A stretch of 64,000 nucleotides of DNA from Coprinellus micaceus (Eukaryota > Basidiomycota > Agaricomycetes > Agaricales > Psathyrellaceae), in contig OX596335.1 in NCBI GenBank assembly GCA_951394405.1, positions 620,001 through 684,000 of the forward strand, given 5' to 3'. Within the stretch, counting starts at the first letter, position 1; each line of letters starts with the position of its first letter. Positions 1-41,573 of this stretch are shown piece by piece. A model generated the notes under the pieces. That model had not been told where the DNA came from, ran no database searches, and saw only the letters and a program-made list of their open reading frames with translations. The position numbers were made by a program, and so were the translations under genes.

Positions 1-720
1 GAAATGGCTTCGACACTGCGCGAATCCGCCGCCGTCGCAACTGCGCGCGCCAAACGAGTCGAGCAGGAGATGCTGGAGGCAGGGTTGATAACCGTAAACC
101 CCACGCCAACCGCTACGCAAGCGTCGATGTCGAAGAAAGCTGGTGGTGGACCACCAGGAGCAAGAGACTCGGTCACAAGCCTATCGTCTACCAAAGGATC
201 GAAGAGCAACGCGGCAGCATCTCAAATCGACGAAGAAGACGAGCCACTGCGCTCCCGCCTCGAAACCATTGGCGTCCAGGTCGGCTCATGCTTTGTCGAG
301 CGCCTCTGTGCACATCGACAACCGTTCGACGATACGCTGGAGGTGATGAAGTTCGTATGTAAGGACGTATGGGTCGCATTGTTTGACAAGCAGGTTGATA
401 ACCTACGAACAAATCGGCGGGGAATGTTCCAACTGAGCGACGCTTGCTTTAAGCCAATACAAAGGGTGAGCTCGTACCTGGGACGGAGTGAGGCGGTAAA
501 GAAGGCAAGGGTATACGCGACGCTGCCGGCGGGTATTGTGAGGGGGATCCTCCAGACGATGGGTTACAGTGGGACGGTAGTACCAGAGATCACATCCGTT
601 CCCCAATGTCAGTATTTCCTGGCGTTTTGGTGGCAGGGGGTGCTTAACACTAACTGAACTTTACTTGCAGGTACACTGAAAGTCAATATCAAGCTACCCA
701 AATCGGAGCTCGCAGTATAA
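1..720 (+). CDS. TRS33: TRAPP complex subunit Trs33/TRAPPC6 (5' end cut by window edge)
   Basis: Bet3-family subunit of the TRAPP tethering complexes, which act in ER-Golgi and Golgi vesicle traffic. The visible part has a low-complexity N-terminal stretch, then the Bet3-like core: GVQVGSCFVERL, a DDTLEVMKFVCKDVW helix, and KQVDNLRTNRRG, which is the signature I recognise for Trs33. Exon 4-607 is followed by a 63-nt intron (608-670, GTCAGT...TTGCAG) and a last exon 671-720 that restores the family C-terminus (PQC|TLKVNIK...) and ends at TAA 718-720. The ATG at 4 is probably not the start: the decayed copy at 2345 carries about 16 further codons upstream (MSGPVDDVAFDNFLAK), so the gene very likely begins left of the window. 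Family assignment is firm; the start is not visible. Confidence 0.85.
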
Positions 721-1149
721 CCGAACTACATTCCCCCATATATCCCCTTCACTACAACGTAACAGACCTAGGGCCCTCTGGTCGCTCTTCCCTCTGCCGC
801 GCGAACTGGGAATGCCCCCCTATGTCCCGCTCCTCGAGCCTTTTGGTATACATACAGGCGCTAGTTTCACAAATAAATCTGTATCGACAGGTCTCGACAA
901 GCAGAAGTATAATTATCTTCGCATGGAGTGACGCGACGAGAGGGCGTACGGACGGCGTTGTAGAGGTTTCGAGCTGCGTACCTACTCTGCCGCCTCCTTG
1001 GATGTCCCAACCCTGCTCGCACCGTCACAGATAGGTCGGCATGAGATCAGACTCCTCGCTGTGGACGGCGGTAGCACAAGAGATCGCAGAATCAGGTTTC
1101 TGAAACTCGTGCGCAATGAATATGGAATACGCCTCGTGAACGTGGTGAT
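721..1149. other. 3' flank of Trs33, partly duplicated
   Basis: I see no gene here. The first 200 or so bases match the stretch after the decayed Trs33 copy (about 3093-3290), including a shared motif around TATACATACAGGCGCTAG, so the duplication extended past the stop codon into the 3' flank. Confidence 0.5.
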
Positions 1150-2344: not shown

Positions 2345-3092
2345 ATGTCCGGACCCGTCGATGATGTCGCCTTCGACAACTTCCTCGCCAAGGTGGCTTC
2401 GATACTGCGCAAATCCGCCGCCGTCGCCTCTGCGCGCGCCAAACGAGCTGAGCAGGAGGGCAGGCCGATACCCACCCCACCCCTACGCAAGCATCGATGT
2501 CAAAGAAGGCCGGGGGTCGACCACCACGAGTAAAAGTCTCAGTAATAAGCCTATCGTCCAATGCTACCGCATCTCAATCTACGAGGAGGGCCTGAGGACG
2601 AGCCCCTACGCTCTCGCCTCGAAACCATCGGCGCCCCAAGTCAGCTCGTGCTTGGGGGGCGGCCCCGCACACATTGACGACCGTTCGATAATACGCTGGA
2701 GGTGATGAATTTTATATGCAAGGGCCTCTGTTTTGTGTTGTTCGACAAACAGGTTGGTAACCTACGGACGAATCGGAGGCGGGTGCTCAGCCGAGCAACA
2801 CTTGCTTTGAGCCAATACACAGGGTGAGCTCGTAACTTGGGCGGGGCGAGGCGGTGAATAAGGCGAGGGTGTGTATATGCGACGCTGATGGTGGGTTTTG
2901 TGAGAGTTATCTTGTGGACGATAGGCTACAGCGGGACGATAGTACCTTGATAGTACCAGCAACTTGAATCACATCCGTGCTGCAATGTATGTTCGTTCTC
3001 GTTTGGGACCACAGGGTCGTCCAAGCTAGCGCTCACCCTTCCCCAGGTACCTTGAAAGTTAATATAGCTCCCCAAGTTGGAGATGGCGGTAT
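2345..3092 (+). pseudogene. decayed second copy of Trs33
   Basis: Starts with an intact ATG and 16 codons absent from the cut-off copy at the left edge, then follows it codon by codon (SAAVASARAKRAEQE) before an indel shifts the frame near 2460. Later pieces are still visible in other frames, including the equivalents of the EVMKF helix, of KQVDNLRTN and of the terminal exon after an acceptor at 3045-3046. Several stops and frameshifts rule out a Trs33 product. It lies tail-to-tail with membrane-ankyrin gene A, an arrangement repeated at 41.6-42.3 kb with gene E. Confidence 0.8.
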
Positions 3093-3338
3093 GGCCTCAC
3101 ATCTCCTCGTATACCCGGTTCACTGCAAGTCTACGGGCCTGGCACTAGCTCTCTCCCCGCCCTTGCACACGAAGTAAGAACGCACCCCGAATGCCGCTAC
3201 ATCGAGTCCTGTTGTATGCATACACGCACTAGATTTCGCAAGTATAAATGTGACAACAGGTATCCAGACAAGGGGATATAACAGCCGTCTGAGCACATGG
3301 TATTAAACGTTCTTCCTAAGCGTCCATCTCGGGCTACA

Positions 3339-6300
3339 TTAGTCAGTAAGCGGCCACAAGGGATTTGACAGGGCATCGTCATCTATCGCCCCATGCCGTT
3401 GAAGAAGTGCAGTTATTTCGGAAAAGTGTTGAGCCCTCCCAAACGAGTCGTTGACCGCCTTGTCTAAGATTTCACGGAGAAGGGTGGGTGAGCCAGGATC
3501 TAGAATGACGACCATGTAAGCACACTTGAATTAAATCAGAGCGGGTGGCCTGCTACCTCGGATATTGGGATCTGCACCATATTTGAGAAGGACCTGCACT
3601 ATGTCTCCTGAGAAATAATGTGACAAGCAGGCTGCATGAAGTGCTGATCCATAATGCCCACCTGAGGGAGGAGGTCAGACGTGATTTGCACAATTGTGGG
3701 ATGGATTTACCCTGTACATGGGGGTCAGCCTTGTTCTCAAGGAGGACCTTCACAATGTTGAGTGAGCCCCTGGCGCAGGCCGCTTGAAGTGCTGATCCAT
3801 AATGCCCACCTGAGGGAGGAGGTCAGACGCGATTTGCACAACTGTGGGATGGATTTACCCAGTAGATTGGGGTCAGCATCGTTCTCAAGGAGGACCTTCA
3901 CAATGTTGAGCGAGTTGCTGGTACAGGCCGCTTGAAGCGCTGATCCATAATGCCCACCTGAGGGAGGAGGTCAGATGTGATTTGCACAATTGTGGGATGG
4001 ATTTACCCAGTAGATGGGGGTCAGCCTTGTTCTCAAGGAGGACCTTCACAATGTCAAGCGAGCCGCTGGCGCAGGCCGCTTGAAGCGCTGATCCATAATG
4101 CCCACCTGAGGGAGGAGGTCAGATGTGATTTGCACAATTGTGGGATGGATTTACCCTGTACATGGGGGTCAGCCTTGTTCTCAAGGAGGACCTTCACAAT
4201 GTCAAGCGAGCCGCTGGCGCAGGCCGCTTGAAGCGCAAATCCATACCCCCCAGCTGAGGTGGGAGGTTAGACGTGACTTGCGCAATTATGGGGCTAACCT
4301 ACCCTGCAGGTTGGGCTCAGCCTTGTTCTCAAGGAGGACCTTCACAATGTCGAGCGAGCCCCTGGCGCAGGCCGCTTGAAGTGCTGATCCATAATGCCCA
4401 CCTGAGGGAGGAGGTCAGACGCAATTTGCACAATTGTGGGATGGATTTACCCTGTACATGGGGGTCAGCCTTGTTCTCAAGGAGGACCTTCACAATGTCA
4501 AGCGAGCCGCTGGTACAGGCCGCTTGAAGCGCTGATCCATAATGCCCACCTGAGGGAGGAGGTCAGACGCTATTTGCACAATTGTGGGATGGATTTACCC
4601 TGTAGATTGGGGTCAGCCTTATTCTCAAGGAGGACCTTCACAATGTCAAGCGAGCCGCTGACGCAGGCCGCTTGAAGCCCTGATCCATACTGCCCACCTG
4701 AGGGAGGAGGTCAGATGCGATTTGCACAATTGTGGCATGGATTTACCCAGTAGATTGGGGTCAGCCTTGTTCTCAAGGAGGACCTTCACAATGTCGAGCA
4801 AGCTCCTGGCACAGGCCGCTTGAAGCACTGATCCATACTCCCCACCTGAGGGAGGAGGTCAGACACGGTTTGCACAATTGTGGGATGGATTTACCCAGTA
4901 GATTGGGGTCAGCCTTGTTCTCAAGGAGGACCTTCACAATGTCAAGTGAGCCGCTGGCGCAGGCCGCTTGAAGCACTGATCCATAATGCCCACCTGAGGG
5001 AGGAGGTCAGACGCAATTTGCACAATTGTGGCATGGATTTACCCTGTACATGGGGGTCAGCCTTGTTCTCAAGGAGGACCTTCACAATGTCGAGCGAGCC
5101 CTTGGCGCAGGCCGCTTGAAGCACTGATCCATAATGCCCACCTGAGGGAGGAGGTCAGATGTGATTTGCACAATTGTGGGATGGATTTACCCAGTAGATG
5201 GGGGTCAGCCTTGTTCTCAAGGAGGACCTTCACAATGTCAAGCGAGCCCCTGGCACAGGCCGCTTGAAGCACTGATCCATACTCCCCACCTGAGGGAGGA
5301 GGTCAGACACGGTTTGCACAATTGTGGGATGGATTTACCCAGTAGATGGGGGTCAGCCTTGTTCTCAAGGAGGACCTTCACAATGTCGAGCGAGCCGCTG
5401 GTGCAGGCTGCTTGAAGCGCTGATCCATGTTTACCTGGTCAGATATTCTTCAGCCCTCTGATATTGGCCCATATCTACAATCATAAGACACACCTTGGAA
5501 GGCAACATCCAAGTCAGTGTTCGCATTAGCCAAACAATGGACGATGTCCCATCTTTCGTCGTCGGTAGCCACCTCGAGTACTGGCCGGCCGTCTTCTGGT
5601 TGGGACTATTTTGGTAATAGAAGGCGACACAAAAATGAATCAACATACCGGGATGCTTTGTAGCATTAACGTCAGCCCCTGCACCGACAAGGCCTTTGAC
5701 AACTTCCCATTTCTTGTGGACAATGGCCACCTCGAGCGCGGTCTGGCCACCTAGTCCCGTTCAAGGTTGTCTCAGTAGCGAAGAACGGGATTAGCAAACA
5801 AAACGCACCTTGATTCCGAGCATTGATATCTGCCGCTGGACAAAGGACCTCAAGAGTTTCCCAGTCCTCATCGAAAGCGGCTGCTTCCACTGTCGTTCGA
5901 CCGTCTATCGGTGTTTGCGTTAGGGACACTTCCATCCCATTAGATTCCATTGAAAGCCGCTCTTACCATGCAGTAAAAGATTAGCGTCTGCCCCAGCACG
6001 AATGAGTTGAGCCATGGCATCCCTATTCTTCGCTCCAATGGCAACTTCGAGTGCCGTCCGTTGATCTAGAGTGGCGTCGTTTCTGAGGACATCGTGAGTC
6101 AAACCGTACCTGAGCACTTACCTGTAAGGCGTGTCAGAAAAGTGGGGGAGAGGGGATGCATGAGCCTGACTTCACCTCCAGTTTTGGTATTAGGGTCAGC
6201 GACCTTCTCAACAAGGTCAAGAATCCTAGGAATGTTCCCTTCGAGAATAGCCTTTATCCAAGCAGCGTTTAACTCCTGCCGTTTAATCTGTTCTTCCTGA

Positions 6301-7548
6301 CGTCGCTGTCTCCGAGCGACTACCATCTCGATGACGTCTCGGAATGGCAAGAACACGAGCAGCACCGCAAGGATCTGCCCAAATCCCCATTTGGTTTCTT
6401 CCTGGCCCTGGAGTCCTCTATTACGAGCCAGTGTGAGCTCGATGTCGGCAATGAAGACAATGTTGATGGCAAAGAGAAACCCCAAACAGATGTAGATGGC
6501 AAAGACGGGCGACGTCGCGGCAGTGTGGAACTTCTTGGTGATTTGCATGCGAAGGGGCTGCACAGCTGTGTTGGCAGGAGGTTCGGCTTCTGCCAGTGTG
6601 GATTGAGTGACCTTGACCCACCGCGCGCGATGCCAGAGGTAGAGCCCAAGGAATGCCGCCATCGGGAGAAGGAGGTTGATCCCCGGAAGAAGGAATAAAC
6701 TGTAGAATGTCAACGAGAAGATGCGCAAGGCGCCGGAGCTGAATGGCACACGGGCGCCAACGACAGCTAAATGTGCGAAGTCGACCGCGCAGCTGGCGTC
6801 GGAAATGCCGAAGGATCGTGGATCGCTCCACAGCCAGATTCCGAGGCCTGCCATAAGCGTGAGATGGAGGGACCCCAAGAGAAGGGCGACCCGCTTGAAG
6901 AGTACTTTCACCCCGCTCTTTCCGTCTACAGAAACAGAATTTCGTTGAGAGACGTAACTCAGCGAGAAATATCCGTGGCGCACCTTTCCCCTCTGTTCGA
7001 TTGCCCTCAGGGTCAGTGACTCCTGCTTGCTCCCGGTCGCTTACCGCGGCTGGAGGATTGACGGCAGCACCCGGAGAAGCTAGAGACGTCAGGGGAAACA
7101 ATCAGTGAAGCATGGTGGAAATTGGGTACGAATCACACTCGCCAGCTGGAAGAGTAAAAAGTGCTTTGGTCTGATCCTTGACGTGTCGTACCCACGAAGA
7201 CCACTGCGGCGCGACTTGCGGCTTGACTCCTTGGCTCTTGTAGTGGACGTAGAGTAGGAAGTATATAAAGGCGTTCGTGTTATTCATCCACGAGAGGCTG
7301 AGGACGATGGTGGCGTGATAATTGGTGAGGCCGAGGGTCAAGGCTTGGACGATGCATGAGATGAGGATGGCGAAAGCGAGCACCAGATTGGTCGTAGATT
7401 GTGTCTCAGCGGACTCGAGTTCATAGTCGGTCACCTCCCAGTCCAACATCGCCCAGATAGCAGGGATGAAGCCCAAGAGGATCTGGAGGTAGATGGCGAT
7501 GCGAACCCCAATCCCCGATATGTCGGGGTTCGCGGGGACGAGGCACAT
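3339..7548 (-). CDS. membrane-ankyrin protein A, with amplified ankyrin exons
   Basis: Unrecognised family: polytopic membrane part followed by ankyrin repeats. I read 21 exons giving about 1,033 aa. Exon 1 (7548-7143) starts MCLVPANPDISG, the start shared by paralogs B, C and F, and holds about three membrane segments. Exons 2 (7079-6984) and 3 (6925-6176) add about four more, with the family motifs GIWLW, CAVD, FIADIELTL and WGFGQIL. Exons 4-7 (6065-5967, 5904-5809, 5750-5649, 5595-5494) each hold one ankyrin repeat. Exons 8-20 are the 148-bp array (see repeat entry). The last exon (3499-3339) ends in a short tail with HGAIDDDA. Every ankyrin exon is phase 1 on both sides. Intron 1 needs a GC donor (7142-7141) to keep frame. 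No stop or frameshift seen. Membrane location is inferred from hydrophobicity; ankyrin repeats usually bind proteins. Confidence 0.75.
3557..5434 (-). repeat. 13 ankyrin exons in 148-bp exon+intron tandem array
   Basis: The plus-strand landmark CTGATCC (sometimes slightly changed) falls at 3644, 3792, 3940, 4088, 4236, 4384, 4532, 4680, 4828, 4976, 5124, 5272 and 5420: twelve consecutive spacings of exactly 148. On the minus strand each full unit is a 99-nt exon (33 aa, containing GSLDIVKVLLENKADP) plus a 49-nt intron that starts GTAAATCC, has a CTGAC branch-like motif and ends CTCCTCCCTCAG. The first exon (5434-5339) is 96 nt and the last (3661-3557) 105 nt and more diverged. Differences between units concentrate at a few residues: S/R/K after CA, N/H after DP, and L/V then L/Q before the donor. 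The 4236 unit is the most diverged internal one. Confidence 0.9.
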
Positions 7549-38785: not shown

Positions 38786-41573
38786 GTGGCCTCACCCTAC
38801 GACCTCATGTTGTTCCTTCTCTTCCTATACTCGGTGGGTGGCACCTTGTGCTTCATCCCATCGAATTCCGACATATCTGGCCCTGGTGTCCGCGCTGCCC
38901 TCTACGCTCAGAACATTCTGTGCTTCATACCCGCCGTTTGGGCCATCTGGGATGGCAAAGTTACCGACTATGAACTCGAATCGATGGAAACCCAGTCGAC
39001 GACCAACCTCATCCTCGCCTTCGCCATCCTCATCTCTTGCATCGTCCAGGCTCTCGCTAGCGGTCTCACCAACTTCCATGCCAGCATTGTGCTCAGCATG
39101 AGCTGGATGAACAACACGAACGCCTTCGTGTACTTCCTCCTCTACATCCAATACAAGAGTCAAGCCGGTGAAGAGCGTGTCGAGCCCAAGTGGACTGCAT
39201 GGTGGACGCACGTCGTACTCAAGCTTCGGTCCGCCTTGCACCTCCCGAAGGGTGAGAAACACACATAGCCTCGCCGACACCACCCGTGCTGACATTTCAC
39301 CTTCAAGCCATCATACTCGGTGGAGGTTCGAGCGCCGAGGAAGGCCAGGACAGCGAGAGCAATGCGCCGAAGCCAGAGATACCAGGTACGTCACCCCTTA
39401 TCCACCCCTTGCAGGCGTCGATCTGATGCACTTATATCGGACCTTCCAGCGCTGAGGGGCGGGGTCAAGGTAATATTCAGGCGCTTTGCTCTAGTCCTGG
39501 GATCTCTGCACCTGACCCTCATGGCCGCCCTCGGGATCTGGCTTTGGAGCAACCCTCGTCTGTTCGGCACCTCCGACTCGAGCTGCGCGGTTGACTACGC
39601 CCACGTAGCAGTCCTCGGTGCTCCGGTACCGTTCGGGTCGGCCGTGCTGCGCGTCTTTTCACTCGTTCTGTATAGTCTCTTCCTCGTACCGGGAGTGAAC
39701 CTCCTCCTTCCGATGGCAGTCTTTCTGGGGATTTACTTCTGGCACCACTCAAGACACAGAAAAATCGGACCAGCAACCGAGGAGCCTCCATCTCAAGATG
39801 TTCCTCCCGTTCCATCGTCGCTATTCTCACCGGCCTTGAAGATCCTCCGCAAGGGGTACGCCCGGTCGATGAAGTCGCCCATCTTCCCTGTTTGGATTGG
39901 CTTGAGCCTCCTCATTATCATCAACATCATCTTTATTGTGGACATCGAGCTCACCTTGGGTCGAAACCAGGCACTTCAGGACAAGGAGGAAGCGGAATGG
40001 GGATTTGGTCAAATCCTTGCGATGCTTCTCGTGTTCATGCCACTTCGAGATGTTGTCGAGATGATACTCGCTCGGAGACAGCGACGTCAGGAACTACAGA
40101 TTAAACGACAGAAGTTAGAGGCCGCTTGGACCGGGGCTATTCTCGAAGAGAACATGGAGAAGATCTTTGAGTTGATCGAGAAGGGGGCTGACCCTAATCG
40201 TAAAACTGCAGGTGAAATCAGGCTTACGTTCATCATCCCGCCCGCACCTTCCTGACACTTTTTACAGGTAGGTGGCCGAGTACTTTTTGATTCATGGCGT
40301 CCTGAGAAACCACGCCACTCTAGATCAACGGACGGCACTCGAAGTTGCGATTTGAGTAAAGAATAGGGATGCCATGGCTCGACTCATTCATGCCGGGGCA
40401 GACGCTCATGTTTTACTGCATGGTGGGAGTGGCTTTTAACGGAATCTAACAGAATGAATGTGTCGCTAACGCAAGCACCTATAGATGGTCGAACGACGGT
40501 GGAGGCAGTCGCTTTCAATGAGGACTGGGAATTGCTTGGTGTCCTAGGTGCTGATGTAGATATCAATGCTCGGAATCAAGGTCTGTCCTTTTGCTAAATC
40601 TGTTCTTCACTACTGAAACAAGATTGCATGGAACTAGATGGTCAGACTGCACTTGGGCTGGCCGTTCTTCTGGAAAAATGGAATGTCATCAAAGGCCTCG
40701 TCAAAGCTGGGGCGGATGCCAATCTTGCCAAGCATCCTGGTACGTTTGTCCATCTCTGTGTAGCCTTCTATTACCAACATAGTCCCAACGAGGAGACGGC
40801 CGGCCAGTACTCGAGGTAGCGACCGACAACGAAAGATGGGACATCGTCCAGTGCTTGGCTAACACGAACACTGACTTGGACGTTGCCTTCAAAGGTGTGT
40901 CTTATGATTGTAGATATCATATATAGGCCAATATCGGAGGGCTGAAGAATATCTGACCAGGTGAATGTGGATCGGCGCTTCAAGCAGCCTGTTACAACGG
41001 TTTACTCGACATCGTGAACGTCCTTCTTGCGAACAAGGCTGAGCCCAATCTGCAGGGTCGGTCAGCCCACAAATGTGCGAGTCATGTCTAACCTTGCACC
41101 TCAGGTGGAAAGTTTGGATCGGCGCTTCAAGCAGCCTGTGACAACGGTTCACTCGACATTGTGAACGTCCTCCTTGAGAACAAGGCTGACCCCAATCTGC
41201 ATGGTAAGTATCTGTGCTCCGCGAGGCTTCCGTCCCAGAGTCTTAGTGCCACCATTTTTCAGCTGGCAACTTCCGAACAATCCTTCATTCGGTCTGTCTA
41301 CAGCTGCGTGAAGACATTGCACAGACTCTTCTTGAAAACCATGCAGATCCCAATATTCGAGGTGAAGTGACCGACGTTCTGATATAGTTCAAGCGCGTTG
41401 ACATGGTCATCATTCTAGGTCCTGGCTCACCCACCCTTCTCCATGAAACCTTAGATGTGGCGGCGAGGGCAATGTGCACGAAGGAGACATACCCGGTGGA
41501 TCAACGCCTCGGTGCAATAGTTGCACTTCTTCGACAGCATGGGGCGATAGACGACGCCGGCCCAACCGCTTGA
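38786..41573 (+). CDS. membrane-ankyrin protein E, with a nonsense codon in one ankyrin exon
   Basis: Nearest relative of gene A, with the same ankyrin exon order and the same final exon (PGSPTLLHETLD...HGAIDDAG), but only two array-type ankyrin exons where A has 13. Exon 1 (38786-39251) has an extra hydrophobic start (MASPYDLMLFLLFLYSVGG) before the family motif FIPSNSDISGPGVR. Exon 2 is 39308-39385 and exon 3 39450-40211 (GIWLWSNPRLFG, SCAVDY, VDIELTLG, WGFGQIL). Exon 4 (from 40324) contains TGA at 40353-40355 where A has GGA. Exons 5-11 are open, including two array-type repeats near 40.97 and 41.11 kb. As ankyrin exons are phase 1 at both ends, leaving out exon 4 keeps the frame. Whether E is a fresh pseudogene or uses skipping cannot be decided here. 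Confidence 0.7.

Follow-up and report, generated by a model that had tools for sequence, protein, structure and literature searches.

A tandemly repeated ankyrin exon and its 49-nt intron in an agaric gene for a predicted membrane protein

The stretch of DNA analyzed here, called the window below, has a length of 64,000 nucleotides. It contains five genes with the membrane domain described below, which start at 7548 (gene A, minus strand), 17931 (gene B, minus strand), 33060 (gene C, plus strand), 38846 (gene D, plus strand), and 46131 (gene E, plus strand), and a short sixth match to this domain. The features of gene A and of its sister gene D are listed in Table 1. The shortest exon of the gene A model comprises 96 nt. 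For exon 1 a GC donor (GCGAGT) was selected because it keeps the reading frame, whereas the remaining donors are GT. The exon ends coincide with what we take to be position 1 of the ankyrin (ANK) consensus. We infer both the splicing of gene A in vivo and the direction of the changes discussed below. The left end of the window is occupied by a Trs33/TRAPPC6-like gene (4-757, plus strand), which shares 95% identity with Coprinellus micaceus and 89% with C. aureogranulatus; the source is thus probably a member of Coprinellus or closely related to it. A second, degenerate copy of this gene lies close by, past the 3′ end of gene A (2394-3128, plus strand). The two copies are 74% identical over 593 columns (53 gap positions) and then 71% over 90.

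Table 1. Positions of the features of gene A and gene D in the window
Feature	Position	Strand	Description
Gene A, model	3339-7548	-	21 exons and 20 introns, each intron in phase 1; product of 1,051 aa; spliced model open to the stop
Gene A membrane domain (exons 1 to 3)	6122-7548	-	Exon 1, 7143-7548; exon 2, 6984-7079; exon 3, 6122-6925
Gene A exons 4 to 7	5494-6065	-	Four divergent ANK repeats, one per exon
Gene A array (exons 8 to 19)	3711-5434	-	Twelve ANK exons, separated by 49-nt introns and repeating every 148 bp
Diverged tract	4235-4316	-	From the last part of exon 15 through its intron into the first part of exon 16
Gene A exon 20	3557-3661	-	Chimera; 5′ part unit-like, then terminal ANK exon of the family
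Gene A exon 21	3339-3499	-	C-terminal, with stop, in the spliced model; 69% to gene D over 137 bp
Gene D, two units	40960-41207	+	Homologous to the gene A array

TRF detected a single array at 3627-5428 with a period of 148, 12.2 copies, 90% matches, 0% indels, and a score of 2890, and of the 13 sites predicted by 148-bp steps from 3645 to 5421, 12 carry a motif of the unit and the one at 4237 is mutated. An initial reading of the sequence alone (the sequence-only reading) had described thirteen ANK exons at identical 148-bp spacing, each full unit consisting of a 99-nt exon and a 49-nt intron in which donor, CTGAC motif, and acceptor are kept. Twelve exons indeed follow the period, but the thirteenth, exon 20, is unit-like only over about its first 30 nt. 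The unit lengths were as described for exons 9 to 19 (11 full exon-plus-intron units), but not for exon 8 (96 nt) and exon 20 (105 nt). All 12 introns of the array, the last of which extends to 3662, have a length of 49 nt, are in phase 1, and show the pattern GT...CAG; the CTGAC motif lies at a fixed place but reads CTAAC in one of them. Whole units share on average 90.6% identity (range, 80.7 to 96.6%), and introns proved to be as well conserved as exons, as had been stated (diversity over 12 units of 0.094 for exons and 0.093 for introns). The mean amino acid identity among the 11 full units is 0.834, with 18 of the 55 pairs at 0.85 or above; these are our own pairwise figures and not the product of the procedure used in PMC4986451, where high internal conservation means more than 85% identity among repeats across 100 aa or more.

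Because the identity within the array is nearly the same for exons (0.910) and introns (0.906), the unit must have been copied as DNA. If units 15 and 16 are omitted, the diversity is 0.087 for exons and 0.055 for introns. Unequal exchange or conversion, proposed earlier as the route of copying, is supported by the presence of two units in gene D versus twelve in gene A, by the grouping of the twelve in one cluster, and by failures of the four-gamete test: all four gametes occurred in 106 of 190 informative site pairs and, for two-state sites of the 11 full units, in 77 of 120 pairs, corresponding to at least 8 exchanges. The likeness of units is flat with distance, adjacent units being no closer to each other than remote ones. 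Linkage had a mean r2 of 0.26 at distances up to 5 bp versus 0.07 to 0.12 beyond, with an overall distance trend that was not significant (p = 0.12). The claim that copying was recent can be upheld only in a relative sense. With about 9% difference between units and not a single pair of identical exons, this is an array that was reshuffled over time rather than formed in a fresh burst.

Exchange was not restricted to whole units, as both the 82-bp diverged tract and the chimeric exon 20 have ends inside exons. Compared with the majority of nine other units, the tract differs at 25 of its 82 positions; its identity to gene D, the best match outside the array, is 82%, compared to 73 to 76% for the nine other array units listed. 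Either the tract was left over from an older junction, or it was imported from a D-like gene. Exon 20 was recognized as a chimera by alignment with gene D, by block identities, and by its tree position among terminal exons. As it starts like a unit and ends like the terminal exon of the family, exchange must have reached the terminal exon.

Gene D is co-linear with exons 3 to 9 of gene A (75.5% identity over 1,769 columns) and with exons 18 to 21 (69.4% over 598 columns), with two units between both blocks. The 48-nt intron between the two gene D units aligns with the 49-nt introns of gene A; the last intron of gene D (59 nt) shows by eye no clear likeness to them, whereas the last array intron of gene A is of the array type. 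The two-unit state of gene D is presumably the older one, although gene D may in principle have lost units instead. A tree was calculated from 95 exons of 90 to 108 nt from nine genes, which offer few columns and a bootstrap that had not settled; L028, L030, L034, L035, L036, L040 to L046, and gene C were left out, and the gene D counterpart of exon 4 was not called. In this tree the 12 units of gene A formed one clade (99/95), the two of gene D grouped together (99/93), and the units of L029 and L031 formed another clade (98/95). Exons 5, 6, and 7 of gene A paired with those of gene D with uneven support (100/75, 88/83, and 98/55, respectively), and the terminal exons of seven of the nine genes grouped together (83/98). 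Exon 4 of gene A is 91% identical to gene D (BLAST), and exons 4, 7, and 8 are nearest to this gene, whereas exon 1 is 84% and 85% identical to genes B and E but only 73% to gene D; exons 3 and 6 have no clear preference. These mixed affinities suggest that exchange took place between paralogs, too.

A search of the genome with exon 1 of gene A gave 18 matches, including itself. All 12 loci outside the window (L027 to L038) match the membrane domain, and nine of them have at least three ANK-like exon hits. When 21 sequences (20 loci and the window) were analyzed with TRF, four arrays with a period of about 150 were found, in gene A, L029 (153), L031 (153), and L032 (159). The arrays of 135/270 bp in L030, L035, and L037 are TPR repeats. 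As the L032 array was built from an upstream ANK exon type, its expansion was a separate one; L029/L031 and L032 expanded separately, and arrays have arisen more than once in the family. The identities of exons and introns, respectively, were 0.910 and 0.906 for gene A, 0.816 and 0.772 for L031, 0.787 and 0.778 for L029, 0.777 and 0.713 for L032, 0.589 and 0.422 for gene E, and 0.606 and 0.241 for L027, in a series from which gaps of more than 75 nt between called exons were omitted (for L027, 10 exons and 6 introns). The paralogs thus form an age series within one genome, from young arrays with both exons and introns alike to old ones with only the exons alike. Copying of entire units with subsequent aging would lead one to expect this faster loss of likeness in introns than in exons. 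The exon calls in the paralogs favored 99 nt and multiples of 3, which biases length counts, but the gene A array is independent of these calls.

Several further loci had a different composition. L039 (contig C5) carries two A-like units and no match to the membrane domain. In L030 (3828-5612, plus strand) and L035 (1-1746, minus strand), TPR repeats with periods of 135/270 bp are encoded by open frames that begin about 160 and 50 bp, respectively, past the last called ANK exon, and these two loci may be fused membrane-ANK-TPR genes. L037 has an open frame (3169-6999, plus strand) with matches to NPHP3_N/AAA NTPase and TPR families in an NLR-like layout, adjoining a copy of the membrane domain that contains a stop. 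A second set of ANK genes with one repeat per exon is located on contig C1 between 0.45 and 1.02 Mb (L040 to L046), with no match to the gene A membrane domain at an E value of 0.001.

A homolog search yielded 125 proteins, and the membrane domain was present in 110 of the 120 listed, with up to 69% identity (Coprinellus micaceus P0004). The named homologs belong to genera that we take to be agaricomycetes. A hydropathy scan of the membrane part of gene A revealed six regions, and a structure model of P0004 (mean pLDDT, 85.8) contains, by our own count, seven long membrane-type helices, the last of which runs toward the ANK stack. The gene A product is therefore predicted to be a membrane protein with six to seven N-terminal helices, presumably located in a membrane. 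When the complete protein of 1,051 aa was scanned against Pfam at an E value of 0.001, ANK families were detected and, within the repeats, also a few matches that look like chance; no NTPase was found, and no family matched the membrane part. Among solved folds none matched the membrane domain with confidence; a GPCR was considered in view of the roughly seven helices. The membrane-type helices and the Pfam result agree with the initial view that the repeat is tied to a membrane protein without an NTPase domain. In the Mycena homologs P0098, P0102, and P0105, a membrane domain of this kind precedes HEAT/armadillo repeats, which take the place of the ANK repeats. Judged by sequence, the family would consist of agaric membrane proteins with helices followed by a C-terminal ANK stack, encoded with one repeat per phase-1 exon.

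The changes between units had been said to cluster, and the per-site variation between units confirmed this, with clusters at codons 3, 7, 13 to 15, and 31 to 33; the amino acid differences are found mainly at the ANK positions of these numbers. As the binding face we used six positions that we take to be those randomized in DARPins. At these positions pN was 0.213 in gene A, about twice the pS of 0.102, whereas elsewhere it was 0.059, about 0.6 of pS. Compared with random position sets, this focus had a p value of 0.0063 (0.0061 without units 15 and 16). An excess of pN over pS on the binding face is only suggestive, the bootstrap share at or below pS being 0.074 for all units and 0.040 if units 15 and 16 are omitted. 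In the other arrays the focus was absent (L031, p = 0.39) or weak (L029, p = 0.069; L032, p = 0.090), with a combined p value of 0.018. An earlier test on amino acid differences had given p values of 0.012 for gene A, 0.42 for L031, 0.050 for L029, and 0.35 for L032, the register of L032 being shifted by two residues in the later test and unshifted in the earlier one. As none of the other three arrays was significant when taken singly, the focus is clear in gene A and not shown to be general. The gene A array may have been selected for diversity.

The explanation that we favor, with a probability of about 0.6, is that the 148-bp unit was multiplied and reshuffled by misaligned exchange, likely in the service of recognition. 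The copies of one ANK exon with its 49-nt intron would have risen from about two to twelve, and the array would have been reshuffled again and again as misaligned units exchanged sequence through both unequal crossover and short gene conversion. As the unit comprises 33 codons and has equal splice signals and phase at its ends, gain, loss, and mosaic exchange in register keep frame and splicing, and as the differences gather on the ANK binding face, such exchange would yield stacks with new combinations of binding residues. This layout could allow a probable binding surface to be lengthened, shortened, and rearranged while the gene stays intact. The membrane-tethered protein likely serves to recognize a variable partner, and the array would be expected to vary between strains.

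A neutral expansion, which is possible though on balance unlikely, would make the array a by-product of unstable repeated DNA, with ANK stacks that accept additional repeats, a framework under purifying selection, and exposed residues free to change, and recognition would not be needed. It accords with the whole-exon dN/dS of 0.87 (1.0 without units 15 and 16), with the wide bootstrap range of pN/pS (0.36 to 3.1), with the lack of a binding-face focus in L031, and with the finding that only 6 of 106 other ANK-bearing homologs have at least three adjacent repeat pairs in a run at 70% identity or more. The elevated pN on the binding face of gene A, set against the lowered pN elsewhere, and the repeated origin of arrays in the family argue against it. 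Quite improbable is a purely structural use, in which the longer ANK stack would act as a spring or spacer of the membrane protein, so that its length would matter and its binding residues would not. ANK stacks of other membrane proteins have mechanical roles, and stack length is very different between sister genes, but the differences between units are focused on binding-face positions rather than evenly spread. An artefact, either a misassembled copy number or 49-nt segments that are not introns, is very improbable, as all 12 array exons are distinct, exact repeats reach at most 125 bp and no 126-mer of the array occurs twice, GT-AG borders and a branch motif are present in 12 of 12 introns, reading through the 49-nt segment caused a frameshift and stops in the units checked (9 and 15), and the paralogs carry unlike introns between ANK exons of the same kind. 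Because of the unique 126-mers, reads of modest length could place each unit, and a wrong copy number is on this evidence unlikely.

Gene A has counterparts in several known systems. The likeness to fungal recognition repeats that had been pointed out is reasonable, since PMC4986451 reports variation in ANK repeat number and selection on the binding face in Podospora NLRs; the binding-face placement was found in the ANK repeats of two NLR genes, one from Podospora and one from Chaetomium, and the number varies among Podospora isolates. Gene A has in common with such repeats (Podospora PNP_UDP/NACHT/ANK, PMC4986451; HNWD, PMC2873952 and PMC12222747), very similar repeats within one gene, exchange between repeats, and differences on the binding face. 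It differs from fungal NLRs in that no NTPase (NACHT/NB-ARC) domain was detected, a membrane domain is present instead, and introns interrupt the repeats. In the main text of these three papers the word "intron" does not occur, but the arrays described there may still have introns.

The LRR genes of Tetrahymena (PMC6564038) share with gene A tandem exons that are uniform in length and intron phase, and DNA-level repeats across the intron. Their unit number varies, unequal crossing over has been proposed, and the arrays were linked to a retrotransposon by the authors, who stated that no other eukaryote with exons and introns so uniform was known to them. Tetrahymena has LRRs encoded by 90-bp exons in phase 2 with introns of about 257 bp (T. 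thermophila), whereas gene A has ANK repeats encoded by 99-bp exons in phase 1 with 49-nt introns. The nearest gene architecture is that of the Tetrahymena arrays of 90-bp exons, and in its way of working the array would resemble those of fungal NLRs. The NACHT-ANK (nank) genes of Tuber melanosporum (PMC9815663 and PMC4986451) are likewise fungal and rich in exons, and their splicing could vary the repeat domain, but they encode a NACHT domain and have codon-sized 3-bp exons, in contrast to gene A with a whole repeat per exon and no NTPase family. Human LPA (PMC6314250) also contains an intron-containing coding unit, kringle IV type 2, in many copies within one gene; that unit has 5.6 kb and two exons and varies in copy number between alleles, whereas the unit of gene A has 148 bp and one exon and was read in one genome.

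The rapidly changing fungal repeat arrays that we found described are in NLR genes; gene A puts this pattern on a membrane anchor, and its exchangeable unit is an exon plus its intron. Fixed-length exon arrays, known from the Tetrahymena LRR genes, have another example in the gene A family. A wider reading, which we put forward tentatively and regard as rather doubtful, is that mushrooms possess a second recognition repertoire, tethered to the membrane and outside the NLRs, in which the intron is part of the diversification device and arrays pass through a cycle of expansion, decay, and renewal. A multi-helix membrane anchor would then carry stacks of ANK repeats, or of HEAT repeats in some Mycena. 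Owing to symmetric phase-1 exons and interchangeable splice sites, the stacks would be re-dealt by germline recombination and once more in RNA by in-frame exon skipping. In the course of the cycle, expansion would be followed by decay, with introns decaying first, and by re-expansion, and the whole would have evolved independently of the Tetrahymena LRR genes. Two ideas become testable: that changes in repeat number are more frequent or safer where introns split the repeats than where introns are absent, and that agarics recognize partners through membrane-bound repeat proteins.
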